Source of the DNA: Microbulbifer aggregans
GTDB lineage: Bacteria > Pseudomonadota > Gammaproteobacteria > Pseudomonadales > Cellvibrionaceae
NCBI RefSeq assembly: GCF_001750105.1
Contig: NZ_CP014143.1
Coordinates: 2,945,501-3,009,500 of the forward strand
Length of the DNA stretch: 64,000 bases
Direction of reading: 5' to 3'
Shown here: piece after piece, positions 31,222 through 38,365 of the stretch
How positions within the stretch are numbered: position 1 is the stretch's first letter
Layout of the letters: every line of letters begins with the position of its first letter
Translations under genes and position numbers: made by a program
The notes under the pieces: generated by a model
What the model was told of the DNA's origin: nothing
Database searches by the model: none
Seen by the model: the letters and a program-made list of their open reading frames with translations, nothing else

Positions 31222-32124
31222 TCAGCTGGGCTCCTCGTTGGCGATCCCGTGGGGCACGTGGCCGGTCGCGACATGCTCTGCCGCAGAGGCACAGTGGTTG
31301 GGCTGATCATCGAAGAAGACGTCGGCCCCGAAAGCTCGCAGGAACTCGCCCTTTGGTAGCCCTCCCAGGAACACAGACTCATCCAGACGGATGTTCCAGG
31401 CCCTGAGAGTTCGGATCACTCGCTCATGAGCCGGTGCGGATCGTGCCGTAACCAGTGCCGTGCGAATCGGGCAGTTATCGGCATCGAACTCCGCCTGAAG
31501 CCGCTGCAGTGCCTCGAGGAACCCCTTGAACGGACCGCCGCCCAGGGGCTGCTGTGCTGAGGCACGCTCGGAAGCGGTGAAGGCTTCGAGACCCTGGCGC
31601 TTGAAAATCTGCTCAGCCTCGTCGGAGAACAACACTGCGTCACCATCGAAGGCAAAACGGAGCGTGTCATCTTCGCGCTGGCGAGAACCTCCGGCCACCA
31701 ACGTTGCCGCGGCAACCCCCTGCTCCAGTGCATGACGTACATCGCGGCCATCGCTGGAAAGGAACAGGTCACAGCCGAAGGGGGCAATGTAACGATAGGG
31801 ACTTTCCCCATTGCAGAAGGCTGCACGGGTGATATTGAGCCCGTAATGCTCGATGGAATTGAATACTCGCAGCCCGGTATCGGCACTGTTGCGGGAGAGA
31901 AGGATCACCTCTACCCTTGGCTCGCCTTCCAACCGTTTGTTGATCTGCAGGAATTTCTTGACCAGCGGAAAGGCATCTCCCTTCGGCAGCACTTCATTTT
32001 CCCGCTCCACCTGGTGGGAAGAAAACGCCTCAAGACCCTGCTCTTCAAATACCTGATGGCTCTCGCGCAGATCAAATAATGCACGAGAAGAAATCGCGAT
32101 CACCAGCTTGTTGGCGAGCTGCAT
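31222..32124 (-). CDS. Cytosolic 5'-nucleotidase I family protein
   Basis: The 300-aa protein matches the 5_nucleotid family related to eukaryotic NT5C1. Visible blocks are KLVIAISSRALFDLRESHQVFEEQG, VEVILLSRNSADTGLRVFNSIEHYGLNITRAAF, DLFLSSDGRDVRHAL and RTALVTARSAPAHERVIRTLRAWNIRLDESVFLGGLPKGEFLRAFGADVFFDDQ. The last resembles a HAD motif III/IV arrangement. It probably dephosphorylates nucleoside monophosphates. It begins 1 nt after the TetR gene ends and so lies in the same operon. Confidence 0.85.
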   Translation of the reverse strand: MQLANKLVIAISSRALFDLRESHQVFEEQGLEAFSSHQVERENEVLPKGDAFPLVKKFLQINKRLEGEPRVEVILLSRNSADTGLRVFNSIEHYGLNITRAAFCNGESPYRYIAPFGCDLFLSSDGRDVRHALEQGVAAATLVAGGSRQREDDTLRFAFDGDAVLFSDEAEQIFKRQGLEAFTASERASAQQPLGGGPFKGFLEALQRLQAEFDADNCPIRTALVTARSAPAHERVIRTLRAWNIRLDESVFLGGLPKGEFLRAFGADVFFDDQPNHCASAAEHVATGHVPHGIANEEPS

Positions 32125-32125
32125 G

Positions 32126-32809
32126 TCAGGGCGCCTCCACGTCGTCCAGACCGCCGGGGCGGGCCTCGTCGCGATTCCGAACCAGGATTGTCAGCAACAT
32201 CTGCTGAAGATCATCTTTGGTGCGCTGGGACCGCACTCCCTCCTGGTTGACGATCACCAGGAATACCGCGTGGAAGGTTTCCAGCGTGAGCCTGGCAACA
32301 CGGTTCATTTCGTTGGGCGGGCAGCTAAACCCGAGCCGCAGGAACATTTTGGTGAGATGGCGGATCACCAGTTCATCATGGCGGGCATCCAGTTCGTGCA
32401 ACTCGGGAATGCCCCACATGGCCTGAACCAGCGGCAGCAGACCGCGCTGCTCGCGATAGACAGCCAGAAGACGCTCCAGAAGTTCTCCGGTAAATGTCTC
32501 CAGGGACATTTCTTCGAGTTCCCCCTGGCCAAGCTCCTCGAGTGCCGCTGTCATACCGGCCAGCCATTGCTCTCCCATGGCATAGAGAATGGCATGTTTA
32601 TTGGGGAAATAATGATACAGGGAACCGACGGAAACGCCGATTTCCTTCGCAATCAGAATGGTGGTCAGGTCGTCCAGCCCAACCTCTTCCAGCAATCGGC
32701 CGGTCGCATCAAGAATCTGCCGAGTGCGCTCGCGGGCTCTCGCCTGAACCGGCTCGCGTCGCGGGGTCAGTTGGCTCTTGCGCTTTTTCTGGTCTGTACC
32801 TGTCAACAC
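32126..32809 (-). CDS. TetR-family transcriptional regulator
   Basis: This 227-aa protein has a TetR N-terminal domain: RARERTRQILDATGRLLEEVGLDDLTTILIAKEIGVSVGSLYHYFPNKHAILYAMGEQW (about 24-82). The C-terminal ligand domain is not assigned. It uses a GTG start at 32809 with a GGGGGAAG ribosome site directly before. The gene is cotranscribed with the 5'-nucleotidase, and lies next to the terminator of the TonB receptor gene, so it could control either. Confidence 0.88.
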   Translation of the reverse strand: MLTGTDQKKRKSQLTPRREPVQARARERTRQILDATGRLLEEVGLDDLTTILIAKEIGVSVGSLYHYFPNKHAILYAMGEQWLAGMTAALEELGQGELEEMSLETFTGELLERLLAVYREQRGLLPLVQAMWGIPELHELDARHDELVIRHLTKMFLRLGFSCPPNEMNRVARLTLETFHAVFLVIVNQEGVRSQRTKDDLQQMLLTILVRNRDEARPGGLDDVEAP

Positions 32810-32935: not shown

Positions 32936-35296
32936 TTAGAAGCGGTAATCCAGATTAACACCAACCACGCGACCGCGGGATGGGTCAGTCTTGGTTGCGG
33001 GCAGGTTGTACAGTGCCTCGGCGTAGCCCCAGTGGTAGTACTCCTCACCAGTGAGGTTCTCGGCATAAATGCCTGCAGTCCAGCTGTCACTCGGCGCGGT
33101 CAGTGCGACGCGCATGTTGAACACATTGCGTGCATCCAGCCTCACGTCGTCAGTGTTTTCCAGGTCGGACCACTGTTCGCCGGTGTAGGTGTACTCACCG
33201 GAAACAGAGAGCTCACCCAGGCCGGTGGTGCGACTGTAGGTCAGTACCGCAGCAGAGGAGAACTCCGGGGAGAACGCCATCTGGTTGCCATCACAGGAAT
33301 CGCAGAACTCAGCCGGCGCACCGGTGAACTCGGTATCAAGCCACGCCATACCCAGGTACAAGTCGAGGTTATCCGTCAGCAGCCAGCGGGCATCCAGTTC
33401 CAGGCCCTGGCCCTGGGATTCACCAACATTCCGGGTGATTGCCGCAGCGCCCACGAAGAACGCCTGCTGCAGATCCTCATAGGTGTACTGGAAAGCGGCC
33501 GCGTTCAACGCCAGGCGGTTGTCCAGCAGACGAGCCTTCAGGCCCAGCTCGTAAGAGAGTACGTTCTCTTCATCAAACTTGCTCGGCTCGGCGTTGCTGC
33601 TATCCACCTCATAGCCCTGCTCGTCCAGCCACTCGTACTGGCTGTCTTCGGTAGTACCATAGGCAGGATCGGTGATGTTGTAGGACAGGTAATCGAAACC
33701 GCCGGACTTGTAGCCGGTCGCCACACTGGCATAGGCCGTCAGTTCGTCGCTCAGCACCTGTGTCAGGGTTACACGACCGGAGACATTGTCCCAGGTGTTG
33801 TCGGCCACGATCGGTCCGTTGGTATACATCGCCTGGTAGTTCCAGCCGCCGGTCCAGGTATCAGGCCACGGCGAGTCAACGCTGTAGGACTTCTCGTCCT
33901 CAGTGTAACGAACACCCAGACCCAGAGTGGTGGAGTCGGTCAGGTCATAGGTGGTGTTGGCAAAAACGCCCCAGCCGGAGTATTCACCCACGGTGTCGGC
34001 TTCTTCGATGGAAAGATTGCCGGGCGCGTACTCCCAGGGATCACCCTCGAAACCAAAGGCTTCGTCGAGAACGTCCTGAGGCAGAGCATCACAGGTCACG
34101 AAGCTGTCGAGGCCCTCTTCCCACTCGTCGGCATAGATGCCGTCACAGATGAAGTCCTCGTTATCGATACCGGCAAAATACGCATTGACCTCTTCCTCGT
34201 AATAGGAGGCACCCAGCACGTAATTGAACGGCCCGGAGTTATTGGAGGTCAGACGGAATTCCTGGCTGAAGAAATCGCCATTCTGGTCGCGCACATAGGT
34301 ATCGATATGCTCGGCAGTGCCGTCGAAGTCCTCAACATAGGTGTAGTTGTGGGTCTTGTAACCGGTAATGGAGGACAGGGTTGAACCGCTGGCCAACTCG
34401 TGCTCGACAGTCAGGATGACGTCGGCGATCTCGGCCTCATCCTTACCAATCTGGTCGTTGTAGACCTGATCGTAATCGCCTTCCAGAATCGGGTAGTTGT
34501 AACCAGCATCGTTGTCGAAGGCGCGATAGATGGTGCCGTCGCTGATACGGTCCTCGTACTGCGCCAGCAGGGTGACTGTGGTGCTGTCAAAACCGTCGTA
34601 AACGGTAGTGATGCGCATGGCGTTCAGTTCGCTGGCACCCAGGTCACGGCCACCGGCCAGGTTCTCTACGTGACCGTCTTCCTGGAAGTGCTTACCGGCA
34701 AAGCGTACGGAAAGGTCATCACCCAGCGGCATGTCGAGGCCACCCTCGATCTCAGTGCGGCCGTACTGGCCAGCACCTACGGAAACCTCACCAGCCATTG
34801 TGTCACCAGGCTTGCGGGACACCATGGAGATGGCTCCGGAAGCGGTGTTACGGCCAAACAGGGTGCCCTGCGGACCTTTGACAACTTCGACGCGCTCCAG
34901 GTCGTACATGCTCGGCGTCGCACCGGTGCGGCTCTGGTAAACGCCGTCCAGGAAGATACCCAGTGCCGGATCGCTGCCGCTACCAAAGCTGTTGTTGTTG
35001 ACACCGCGAACTGATACGGAATCGAAGTAGGAGTCGGTGGTCTCACCAGAAACCCCCGGGGTCAGCGCGAACAGGTCTTTGAAGTCGCTCAGGTTGCTGT
35101 TCTTGACCGTGTCGCCGGTAAAGGCGCTAACCGCCATCGGCACATCCTTGAGGGACTCTGCACGCATCTGCGCGGTAACAGTTACCTCTTCAATCTGTGC
35201 CGCGGTAGCACCCGTGCTGACAGCAATGACTACGGCACCCACGGCCGAAGCCAGGGTGTTCTTGGTCGTGAACAATTGTTTCTCGTTAACAGGCAT
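32936..35296 (-). CDS. TonB-dependent outer-membrane receptor
   Basis: This 786-aa protein has a signal peptide (1-33, ending GATA-AQ), a TonB-box-like EEVTVTAQ (36-43), a plug domain (about 50-165, SVSVRGVNNNSFGSGSDPALGIFLDGVYQSR and VEVVKGPQGTLFGRNTASGAISMVSRKP) and a 22-strand type barrel ending in F (GVNLDYRF). No N-terminal signalling extension is present, so it is not a FecA-type transducer. Two Cys pairs are in extracellular-type acidic loops (near CDGIYADEW...VTCDALP and FCDSCDG). The substrate is unknown. The upstream element at 35390-35412 is shared with the puuB/puuA promoter region, which hints at an amine- or peptide-type ligand. Confidence 0.93.
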   Translation of the reverse strand: MPVNEKQLFTTKNTLASAVGAVVIAVSTGATAAQIEEVTVTAQMRAESLKDVPMAVSAFTGDTVKNSNLSDFKDLFALTPGVSGETTDSYFDSVSVRGVNNNSFGSGSDPALGIFLDGVYQSRTGATPSMYDLERVEVVKGPQGTLFGRNTASGAISMVSRKPGDTMAGEVSVGAGQYGRTEIEGGLDMPLGDDLSVRFAGKHFQEDGHVENLAGGRDLGASELNAMRITTVYDGFDSTTVTLLAQYEDRISDGTIYRAFDNDAGYNYPILEGDYDQVYNDQIGKDEAEIADVILTVEHELASGSTLSSITGYKTHNYTYVEDFDGTAEHIDTYVRDQNGDFFSQEFRLTSNNSGPFNYVLGASYYEEEVNAYFAGIDNEDFICDGIYADEWEEGLDSFVTCDALPQDVLDEAFGFEGDPWEYAPGNLSIEEADTVGEYSGWGVFANTTYDLTDSTTLGLGVRYTEDEKSYSVDSPWPDTWTGGWNYQAMYTNGPIVADNTWDNVSGRVTLTQVLSDELTAYASVATGYKSGGFDYLSYNITDPAYGTTEDSQYEWLDEQGYEVDSSNAEPSKFDEENVLSYELGLKARLLDNRLALNAAAFQYTYEDLQQAFFVGAAAITRNVGESQGQGLELDARWLLTDNLDLYLGMAWLDTEFTGAPAEFCDSCDGNQMAFSPEFSSAAVLTYSRTTGLGELSVSGEYTYTGEQWSDLENTDDVRLDARNVFNMRVALTAPSDSWTAGIYAENLTGEEYYHWGYAEALYNLPATKTDPSRGRVVGVNLDYRF

Positions 35297-35389
35297 GGTC
35301 GTCCCCGTGTTGTTTTTATGCAGGGCTGCTCATCCGATACCGCTGATGACAGTACCCAAGTGATAAAACTTGAAGCTTCGTTATCCCAC

Positions 35390-35412
35390 AAACCGAATGA
35401 TTATTCAAATTT
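35390..35412. promoter_or_regulatory. Putative operator half-site upstream of TonB receptor gene
   Basis: AAACCGAAT-G-ATTATTCAA (35390-35408) matches the half-site of the large dyad at 36811-36855 at 18 of 18 positions, with one variable base between the blocks. It lies about 95-115 bp upstream of the receptor start codon. The second arm here is degenerate (TTCTGGATTACGG region). Confidence 0.6.
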
Positions 35413-35462
35413 ACATTCTGGATTACGGATTCATTGTTTTCTGGCACTGATTTGGTGCAGTT

Positions 35463-36770
35463 TCAGCTGCCCAACTTGTCCTTCAGGCTGTAGTAGAGCA
35501 TCCCCGCCACCAGTCCCGGCCACCGGAGCAGCGTGCCGCCAGGGAAGGTCGGTGTCGGAATTTGCGCCAGTATATCAAAACGTTCCTCGGTGCCAGCTAT
35601 TACTTCTGCAAGCAACTTGCCAGCGAACGTGGCGGTCGGCACACCGTGGCCGGAGTACCCCTGGCTGTAGTAGATATTTGGCTCCAGCCGGCCCAGATGC
35701 GGCATCCTGTTCAGGGTAATGGCCAGGGTCCCGCCCCAGCCGTACTCGATGCGGGTATCGGCGAGCTGGGGGTACACCCGCAACATGTACTTGCGCACAA
35801 AGCTGCGGATATCCTGCGGGAAGCGGGAGGTATAGTTCTCACCACCGCCGAAAATCAGCCGGTTGTCACCGGATAGCTTCCAGTAGTCAATGACAAACAG
35901 GGTGTCCTGGAGGGCGTGATCGTTGGCGATCAGCTCCTGGGCCAGGCTATCCGAGAGGGGCTCGGTGGCCAGAACGAAGTTATTGATCGGCATGATCTTC
36001 CCCGCCATGCGGGGCTCAAGGTTACCCAGGTAACCGTTGCAGGCCAGCACCACGTTGCCAGCCCTCACCTGCCCTTTTGCCGTCTCCACCACGCAAGGTG
36101 AACCGCCACGGTAGCTGGAGACCCGGCTGTGCTCGAAGAACTGCACTCCAGCGGCCGCAGCGGCATCAGCCAGGCCAAGGGCATAATTCAGAGGGTGCAG
36201 GTGCAGGGAACCACTATCGATTTGCGCCCCATAATAACGCTCGGAGCCCACCAGGCTGCGGACCTCGTCTTCGCCGACATAACGCATCTGGTCATAGCCA
36301 TAGCGTTCCCGCAGCATTTCCACTTCCTGCTCAAGATCACTGTTGTGGCTGCGCTTTGCCGCCAGGTGCATGATGCCCCGCTTGAGATCGCACTGGATGT
36401 CGTGCTTTTTGATCAGGGACTCGACCAGCTGAACCGCTTCCACTCCCATATCCCAGAGTTCTTTGGCGGTATCGAAGCCCAGCATCTTCTCGAGGTCTTC
36501 CTGCCCTTTTCTCTGGCCAACACCCACATGGCCACCATTGCGCCCCGACGCCCCCCAGCCTATCCGCTCAGCTTCCAGCACCACCACCTTGTAGCCGCGC
36601 TCCGCCAGGTGCAGAGCTGAGGACAGGCCTGTGTAGCCTGCACCAATCACGCAGACATCCGCTTCCACGGTCCCCTCCAGCGCTGGATACACTGGTGCTG
36701 CGTTCGCGCTGGCGGCATAGTAGGAATCGGTATGCCCGACCAGTTTGCTGACCGTACCTGCGTTATTCAT
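35463..36770 (-). CDS. puuB: FAD-dependent gamma-glutamylputrescine oxidase-like protein
   Basis: PuuB-type enzymes oxidise gamma-glutamyl-putrescine (or related glutamyl-amines) to the aldehyde plus hydrogen peroxide. The 435-aa protein has the FAD dinucleotide fold DVCVIGAGYTGLSSALHLAERGYKVVVLEAERIGWGASGRNGG (38-81) and a DAO C-terminal part with EYGWGGTLAITLNRMPHLG and YYSQGYSGHGV. I start it at ATG 36770 because TTGGAGAAG lies 5 nt upstream; a longer frame reaches 36821. It is divergent from a PuuA-like synthetase and shares the dyad at 36811-36855. The exact amine substrate is inferred. Confidence 0.85.
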   Translation of the reverse strand: MNNAGTVSKLVGHTDSYYAASANAAPVYPALEGTVEADVCVIGAGYTGLSSALHLAERGYKVVVLEAERIGWGASGRNGGHVGVGQRKGQEDLEKMLGFDTAKELWDMGVEAVQLVESLIKKHDIQCDLKRGIMHLAAKRSHNSDLEQEVEMLRERYGYDQMRYVGEDEVRSLVGSERYYGAQIDSGSLHLHPLNYALGLADAAAAAGVQFFEHSRVSSYRGGSPCVVETAKGQVRAGNVVLACNGYLGNLEPRMAGKIMPINNFVLATEPLSDSLAQELIANDHALQDTLFVIDYWKLSGDNRLIFGGGENYTSRFPQDIRSFVRKYMLRVYPQLADTRIEYGWGGTLAITLNRMPHLGRLEPNIYYSQGYSGHGVPTATFAGKLLAEVIAGTEERFDILAQIPTPTFPGGTLLRWPGLVAGMLYYSLKDKLGS

Positions 36771-36810
36771 AGATTCTTCTCCAACTGCGTAGGGTCCCCG
36801 GGCACCCCAA

Positions 36811-36855
36811 AAACCGAACAATAATTCAATTTATAATTGAATAATAATTCGGTTT
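36811..36855. promoter_or_regulatory. 45-bp near-perfect dyad between puuB and puuA genes
   Basis: The sequence begins AAACCGAA and ends TTCGGTTT, with inner arms ATTCAATT and AATTGAAT. Comparing it with its own reverse complement, only a few central and flanking positions differ. It lies 41-85 bp before the puuB ATG and about 175 bp before the puuA ATG. The size and symmetry fit an operator bound by a dimer pair or tetramer. The same half-site recurs at 35390-35412. Confidence 0.65.
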
Positions 36856-37030
36856 CTTGTCATAATCAAAGCCTGCAATCTGGTTTATTGACCTAATTGC
36901 CTCCCGCATCGGCCACCAGGCACCCTTGCCTGTGGACTGTTCGGCCCCATAAAGGCAGCGCCGATACCCCCCGATCCGGGCGTATACTAAAACAATCCCT
37001 CCAGGGGGAATCCTTCGACCAAGGTGTAAC

Positions 37031-38365
37031 ATGGACAAAATTACAAAGTGGCTGGCAGAGCACAACATCTCTGAGGTGGAGTGTCTGGTGCCCGACATGT
37101 CCGGCAATGCCAGGGGCAAATTTACCCCCACGGACAAGTTCCTCACCGAAGACAGCCGGCTGCCGGAAAGCATCCTCGTACAAACCGTCACCGGAGACTA
37201 TGTCGATGAGCACAACGAGCTTGTCGACCCCGCCGACACCGACATGCTGCTGGTACCCGATCCGGATTCCGTGCGCCTGAATCCCTGGGCTAACGAGCCC
37301 ACGGCCCAGATCATCCACGACTGCTACACACGGGATGGCCAGCCGCATCCGATCAGCACCCGCAACATTCTCAAGTTCGTACTGGCCAAATATGAGGCCA
37401 TGGGCTGGAAGCCGGTGGTCGCGCCCGAGGTTGAGTTCTACCTGGTCAAGCGCAACCTGGATCCCGATGAAAAACTGTCCGCCCCGGTTGGCCGCTCAGG
37501 CCGCACCGAAAAGACACGCCAGTCCTACAGCATCGACGCGGCCAACGAGTACGAGCCGATCATCGAGGACATGTACGACTTTTCGGAGGCCCAGGGCCTG
37601 GACGTGGACACCCTGATCCACGAGTCCGGCACGGCACAGATGGAAATCAATTTCCTGCACGGTGATGCGCTTCGCCTGGCCGACCAGGTTTTCACTTTCA
37701 AACGAACCGTACGTGAGACCGCGCTTCGCCACGGTATCTATGCCACATTCATGGCCAAGCCGATGGAAGATGAGCCGGGCAGCGCCCTGCACATTCACCA
37801 GAGTGTTGTCGACATCGAGACCGGCAAGAACATCTTCGTGGACGAAGATGGCCGTGAAAACCAGCGCTTCATGCACTTTATTGGCGGCATGCAGAAGTAC
37901 ACCCCGGGCTTCATCAGCTTCTTCGCCCCTAACGTAAACTCGTATCGCCGTTTCACCCCGGAAATCGCGGCGCCCACCAGCCTGCACTGGGGGTATGACA
38001 ATCGCACGACCGGCCTGCGGGTACCTGACAGCTCACCACAGGCCAAGCGTCTGGAAAACCGTTTCCCTGGCGCGGACTGTAACCCCTACCTGGCAATTGC
38101 GACCTCCCTCGCATGCGGGTACCTGGGCATGGTCAATGAAATCGAGCCAACCCCACCCTATAAGGGGGACTGCTCTTCAGAGCCGATCAGTCTGCCCCGC
38201 ACACAGGAGCACGCGCTCAGCCTGCTGCTCGAATGTGAAGAAGCGGCAGAAATGTTCGGGGAGAAATTTGTACGCGCGTGGAGTGCGATCAAGCGGGATG
38301 AATACGAGGAATTCAACCGGGTGATCAGTTCCTGGGAGCGCGAGTACCTGCTGCTCAACGTGTAG
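37031..38365 (+). CDS. puuA: Glutamine synthetase-family gamma-glutamyl-amine ligase (PuuA-like)
   Basis: This 444-aa protein belongs to the GlnA-like group that joins glutamate to amines such as putrescine, using ATP. The GS catalytic core is intact: VVAPEVEFYLV (metal Glu), SGTAQMEINFLHGDALRLADQVFTFKRTVRETA, GSALHIHQSV, NSYRRFTPEIAAPTSLHWGYDNRTTGLRVP and ENRFPGADCNPYLAIA. The tyrosine adenylylation motif of true GlnA is not present. It is divergent from the PuuB-like oxidase. PuuC and PuuD are not seen, so only the first two steps of the pathway are encoded here. ATG 37031 has AAGGTG upstream. Confidence 0.85.
   Translation: MDKITKWLAEHNISEVECLVPDMSGNARGKFTPTDKFLTEDSRLPESILVQTVTGDYVDEHNELVDPADTDMLLVPDPDSVRLNPWANEPTAQIIHDCYTRDGQPHPISTRNILKFVLAKYEAMGWKPVVAPEVEFYLVKRNLDPDEKLSAPVGRSGRTEKTRQSYSIDAANEYEPIIEDMYDFSEAQGLDVDTLIHESGTAQMEINFLHGDALRLADQVFTFKRTVRETALRHGIYATFMAKPMEDEPGSALHIHQSVVDIETGKNIFVDEDGRENQRFMHFIGGMQKYTPGFISFFAPNVNSYRRFTPEIAAPTSLHWGYDNRTTGLRVPDSSPQAKRLENRFPGADCNPYLAIATSLACGYLGMVNEIEPTPPYKGDCSSEPISLPRTQEHALSLLLECEEAAEMFGEKFVRAWSAIKRDEYEEFNRVISSWEREYLLLNV

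Follow-up and report, generated by a model that had tools for sequence, protein, structure and literature searches.

Shared palindromic operators suggest that a TetR-family regulator links TonB-dependent receptor genes to puu-type genes in Microbulbifer and other marine gammaproteobacteria

The window, that is, the whole 64-kb stretch of Microbulbifer aggregans DNA that was analysed, contains a TonB-dependent receptor gene next to a divergent pair of puuB-like and puuA-like genes. The genes and the operators predicted beside them are as follows.

31222..32124, minus strand: 5'-nucleotidase gene, directly after tetR (domain search)
32126..32809, minus strand: TetR-family regulator gene, proposed repressor (TetR_N and TetR_C_15 domains)
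32936..35296, minus strand: TonB-dependent receptor gene (Plug and beta-barrel domains)
35390..35411, minus strand: predicted operator of the TonB-receptor gene, with a 16-bp core at 35393-35408
35463..36770, minus strand: puuB-like FAD-dependent oxidoreductase gene (DAO domain)
36811..36832, no strand: predicted operator 1, puuB-proximal, between puuB and puuA (motif and palindrome searches)
36834..36855, no strand: predicted operator 2, puuA-proximal, between puuB and puuA (motif and palindrome searches)
37031..38365, plus strand: puuA-like glutamine-synthetase-family gene (family and domain searches)

An earlier note on this DNA had seen no adjacent regulator gene of the usual PuuR type and called the regulator unknown, but tetR immediately follows the TonB receptor gene. 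The TetR_N domain scored 51.6 bits against a Pfam cut-off of 24, and the protein had the all-helical TetR fold with a C-terminal ligand domain. A Pfam scan (E<=0.001) found TetR domains only, and no XRE-type or cupin domain of the PuuR/PauR type. DesT and EthR are TetR-family one-component repressors as well, but none of the curated NCBIfam regulator models covers the protein described here (36.8 bits at best, where the cut-off is 265). The TonB receptor was above the Pfam cut-offs for Plug (63.8 vs 23.9) and beta-barrel (98.2 vs 27), and under that for TonB-dependent siderophore receptors (TIGR01783, 159.2 vs 223.5). The 5'-nucleotidase gene, perhaps on the same transcript as tetR, was its neighbour at each of the 41 Microbulbifer tetR loci that were read, and 5 of the 55 loci from other genera had it as well.

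The 19-mer AAACCGAATNATTATTCAA was found without mismatch at 35390-35408 (plus strand), upstream of the TonB receptor gene, and at 36837-36855 (minus strand), between the puuB-like and puuA-like genes, where a further copy with two mismatches lay at 36811-36829 (plus strand). The earlier claim that the copies exceed chance agreed with 100 dinucleotide shuffles of the window, in which there was no match at up to three mismatches. Independently of this, the TonB-side site was found to pair with the puuA-side arm in inverted orientation over 28 bp (86%). Comparison of AAACCGAATNATTATTCAA with its own reverse complement showed the palindrome YYGAATNATNATTCRR with A-rich and T-rich flanks. Because the supposed half-site is itself palindromic, the 45-bp dyad at 36811-36855, which the earlier note had placed correctly but read as two half-sites, is by its sequence two adjacent predicted operators, each "half-site" being a complete palindromic operator and the TonB site a single one. 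The two operators were spaced 23 bp from centre to centre here and 22 bp in many relatives. The 18 defined bases said to be kept are all kept in the right arm of the dyad, but the left arm differs at two, and the repeat upstream of the TonB gene, though exact, ends at 35408 and not at 35412.

Across the 3.86-Mb genome, with up to three mismatches allowed, the 19-mer occurred at 7 places and the 22-bp palindrome at 9, and the reversed control at none in either search. The 9 palindrome places comprised three in the window, one before a membrane-protein gene, one before a puuC-like gene, two before speA, one before a second TonB gene and one within a reading frame.

To extend the search, a matrix was built from the puuA, puuB and TonB sites of 29 Microbulbifer puu loci (77 matches, 42 distinct), so the scores of these three sites in the 29 training loci are not independent, whereas those of all other targets are. 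A site was counted as present if it scored above 15; the best background scores did not exceed 6.3 in coding sequence (n=480) or 13.3 in upstream stretches shuffled by single letters (n=600). TetR was present in 41 of 48 Microbulbifer genomes; the seven in which it was not found include G007, an 80% complete genome. Among the 41, the genes ran cysB, nucleotidase, tetR, TonB, puuB, puuA in 36, and in 36/36 of these the puuB-puuA intergenic region had one or more sites. Upstream of the TonB gene, 35 of these 36 loci, most of which had also trained the matrix, had a site scoring above 15, and one had none within the 330 bp used for scan and alignment, a length that a farther site could escape. 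The remaining five TetR-containing genomes (G003, G009, G014, G036 and G062) had no TonB gene at the locus, and tetR followed puuB. In this group the puuA-puuB operator was weak in two (G062, 19.3; G009, 14) and was not found at up to three mismatches in the other three, where the region held GAAT-N4-ATTC, intact or decayed; the speA site was kept in all five. In a tree of speA genes from 30 genomes (G062 not included), the absence of TetR appeared as one change (support 90/72), and so did the absence of TonB among TetR-containing genomes, which means that each agreement counts about once.

Two observations concern other TetR-type regulators. A second TetR paralogue, 39-41% identical, was seen in three genomes (L246, i.e. 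G068:C78:302193; G024:C8:1286918; G035:C102:122857), about 32-34 kb from the membrane-protein gene in each. At L048:6403-6440 (G008), two operator-like copies formed a direct repeat with 22-bp spacing some 0.3 kb ahead of the gene for another TetR-like regulator, and cross-control is possible there.

Outside the puu locus, a site above 15 was found upstream of speA in 41/41 TetR-containing genomes, against 0/6 of the TetR-less genomes having speA, and upstream of the puuC-like gene in 34/41 against 0/7. The speA of G062 was matched from residue 211 only, and the stretch ahead of the match was scanned; G030, classed as TetR-less and site-less, scored 13.8 at speA. The omega-aminotransferase gene aptA, found with mmsA in 12 genomes, had a site above 15 in 10 of them, and the other two scored 10-12 and were counted as absent. 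The second TonB receptor gene had a site above 15 in all 14 genomes having it (14/48 of the genus), and two paralogues had none. The aldehyde dehydrogenase gene ahead of this receptor gene scored above 13.3 in 13/13, with one contig cut. In M. aggregans itself (L041, own genome 1068000-1081000), an aldehyde dehydrogenase, an APC permease, the second TonB receptor and an FAD oxidase were clustered, with operators before two of the genes.

The membrane protein of 280 residues is encoded outside the window, as follows.

L039:5849-6691, minus strand (own genome 7851-8690): membrane-protein gene
L360:282-1139, minus strand: membrane-protein gene of a relative

Its gene was present in 37 genomes, namely 36 with TonB and G007 (46% identity), and in none of the other 11, a distribution that may be a single event too. 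An upstream site above 15 was found in 33/33 TetR-containing genomes examined (G023, G059 and G065 lay outside the matrix scan), but the gene of the TetR-less G007 had none across its 12-kb stretch. Against a single event, the gene was also found no more than about 3 kb from puuA in 7/55 loci of other genera. No Pfam family matched the protein at E<=0.001; the model of a relative had six long helices, and many acidic residues were invariant among seven relatives. We regard this orphan protein as a candidate for amine uptake. In G007 (G007:C48, L314), in which TetR was not found, genes for its homologue, puuA-like and puuB-like proteins and an amidohydrolase stood together.

We then examined the motif in other genera. 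A scan of the genome collection with the TetR protein gave 525 related stretches, of which the best 80 (57 examined) comprised 25 Microbulbifer loci and 55 from other groups, including Cellvibrionaceae, Halieaceae, Oceanospirillaceae, Marinomonas and others. The order of puuA, puuB and tetR could be read in 45 of the 55, the other 10 being without the arrangement or cut. With the matrix trained on Microbulbifer only, the puuA-puuB operator was found in 45/45 readable regions of these other marine gammaproteobacteria, while 100 permuted palindromic matrices matched a mean of 0.4 and a maximum of 6 of the 45. Sites numbered 94 within the puuA-puuB regions, which span 19.4 kb, and 25 in the other 809 kb. 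As the 55 loci were collected via TetR, they test whether TetR implies the site, and not the converse. Together with the 36/36 Microbulbifer loci of TonB order, these regions bear out the conservation in related genomes that the earlier note had asked for. TonB receptor genes were present in 4 of the 55 loci, with an upstream site in L357 and L380. PotF-like proteins were encoded in 31 of the 55, PuuD-like in 7, and AguA and AguB in 2, both of Marinomonas and both close to the puu genes.

Thus, the TetR of 32126-32809 very probably acts at these sites and regulates the genes concerned, as judged from sequence comparison. The motif could instead belong to another regulator, the CysB-type LysR neighbour or a distant XRE-cupin protein of the PuuR type, with TetR a bystander: cysB is likewise conserved beside the locus, and motif copies at scattered genes are what a wider regulator would give. 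But cysB was also present in 6/7 TetR-less Microbulbifer puuB loci (none was seen in the G007 stretch) that had no site above 15, and it occurred in only 6/55 stretches of other genera against a site in 45/45 readable regions. In 21 genomes of other families, three of which had TetR, the motif at one mismatch was near background (15 places; reversed control, 8), and the sole place read beside puu genes there (G044) adjoined TetR. From these comparisons of cysB and TetR, we consider a different regulator very improbable and take TetR as the very probable owner of the sites.

The position of the sites was then compared with promoter-like sequences, which at the puu locus are as follows.

35380..35408, minus strand: putative TonB-gene promoter, TTGAAT-N17-GATAAC (conserved blocks in 35 aligned loci)
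36837..36866, plus strand: promoter-like site for puuA, TTGAAT-N18-CATAAT (consensus match only), with the -35 box in operator 2
36841..36869, minus strand: promoter-like site towards puuB, TTGATT-N17-TATTAT (consensus match only), with the -10 box in operator 2

The consensus scan gave 3 sites against 0.8 expected, including the puuA site and one towards puuB; the proposed TonB promoter, whose -35 box lies within the operator, was not among its matches. Alignment of the upstream regions of the membrane-protein gene gave TTGCAA-N17-GATATT with the operator within the spacer, and that of the puuC-like gene gave TTGATT-N17-TATAAA with the operator at the downstream edge. Part of the puuC promoter region (TGTGATCACATTTTCGATAT) persisted without the operator in the TetR-less genomes G030, G064 and G067, and also in three TetR-containing genomes of the TonB-less group. 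The element TGTGATCACA, which we take to resemble a CRP/FNR-type site, was conserved some 10-20 bp upstream of the puuC-like gene's operator (L142-L171) and was kept in some TetR-less genomes. A site on or against the promoter boxes is the usual position for a repressor, and since most operators overlap promoter-like boxes, repression is likely; the sign of the control and the ligand are less sure than the link between site and regulator.

The aligned upstream regions of speA showed no clear overlap of promoter and operator, and in most cases the site preceded the start by some 100-250 bp. It would also be odd for a catabolic repressor to act on the usually biosynthetic speA, unless arginine is degraded via putrescine. 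These features of a site found in every TetR-containing genome would suit an activator, or a polyamine-bound co-repressor that limits polyamine pools, better than an inducible catabolic repressor. Against this stand the sites on or against promoter-like boxes at the TonB, puuA, puuC and membrane-protein genes, and the AguA and AguB genes of the two Marinomonas loci, which fit a breakdown from arginine via agmatine to putrescine. An activator or co-repressor is in our judgement distinctly unlikely, and an inducible catabolic repressor is the reading we keep.

Family scores were compared with the curated cut-offs. SpeA exceeded the cut-off of its family, biosynthetic arginine decarboxylase (NF003763, 816.7 vs 369), and for the PuuC-like protein aldehyde dehydrogenase PuuC was the top-scoring family, though under the cut-off (NF007352, 670.5 vs 850). 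The PuuA-like protein had a clear glutamine synthetase catalytic domain (351.3 vs 24) and remained under the cut-off for gamma-glutamylputrescine synthetase (NF045547, 204.5 vs 650), and the PuuB-like protein was nearest to L-pipecolate oxidase AmaA, again under the cut-off (NF050086, 224.3 vs 600). The last two scores would be in line with another amine or amino acid, and not a common polyamine, being handled via gamma-glutamylation. This is unlikely given the company of SpeA, PuuC-like, PuuD-like, PotF-like and AguA/AguB proteins, and we infer the polyamine link from this gene content, i.e., SpeA and the PuuA/B/C-like proteins with PotF, PuuD and AguA/B as neighbours in relatives.

We propose that a TetR dimer binds each palindrome, with its core YYGAATNATNATTCRR and A-rich and T-rich flanks, and that bound TetR would cover the promoter boxes and repress the divergent puuB and puuA genes. 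It would also repress the transcript of TonB receptor and tetR, and by this its own expression. Its control would extend to speA, the puuC-like aldehyde dehydrogenase, the second TonB-receptor operon and the unnamed membrane protein. A polyamine or a gamma-glutamyl derivative would most likely bind the C-terminal domain and release TetR, by which uptake and degradation would increase together. That the ligand of the TonB receptor is a polyamine-type compound is a guess. The central proposal of the earlier note, one operator common to the TonB receptor gene and the puuA/puuB pair, is supported in that the sites were found, are conserved in relatives and have predicted targets that suggest polyamine metabolism.

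The Escherichia coli repressor of the gamma-glutamylation (puu) operons, PuuR, is induced by putrescine (PMC9397018; PMC7901475) and is a homologue of the XRE-cupin protein PauR (PMC7901475). Both PuuR and, by prediction, the TetR described here act on puu genes, but PuuR is an XRE-cupin protein, and speA and TonB receptors among the predicted targets are a further difference. PauR of Pseudomonas aeruginosa represses polyamine genes (29 genes) through a palindromic motif with sites in core promoters and one before its own gene, and in the part of the source available no TonB receptor is named (PMC7901475). The present system would be of a similar kind, a multi-target catabolic repressor, and would differ by its protein family and its predicted outer-membrane receptor targets. 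EpuRII (SCO5656) of Streptomyces coelicolor controls the gamma-glutamylpolyamine synthetase gene glnA3 (PMC9397018); both regulators act, or are predicted to act, on a gamma-glutamylation-type gene, but EpuRII is actinobacterial. Among the matches listed in the open-access literature, neither a TetR-type regulator of puu genes nor a TonB-dependent polyamine receptor was found.

The case for the link between operator and regulator and for the polyamine-like list of predicted targets is strong at the level of sequence. It is more tentative, and somewhat less likely than not, that marine gammaproteobacteria have an undescribed TetR-type polyamine regulator and that in Microbulbifer this regulator turns on the uptake of polyamines or their conjugates through two TonB receptors, with the acid-rich orphan protein perhaps carrying them across the inner membrane. 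Polyamines are considered an important constituent of plankton-derived dissolved organic matter (PMC8437039). By this analysis an unnamed TetR group (525 related stretches, with 57 of the best 80 examined) would gain a DNA motif and a target list, TonB receptors without assigned ligand would be tied to polyamine metabolism, and a membrane protein family without Pfam match (E<=0.001) would have its first functional handle.
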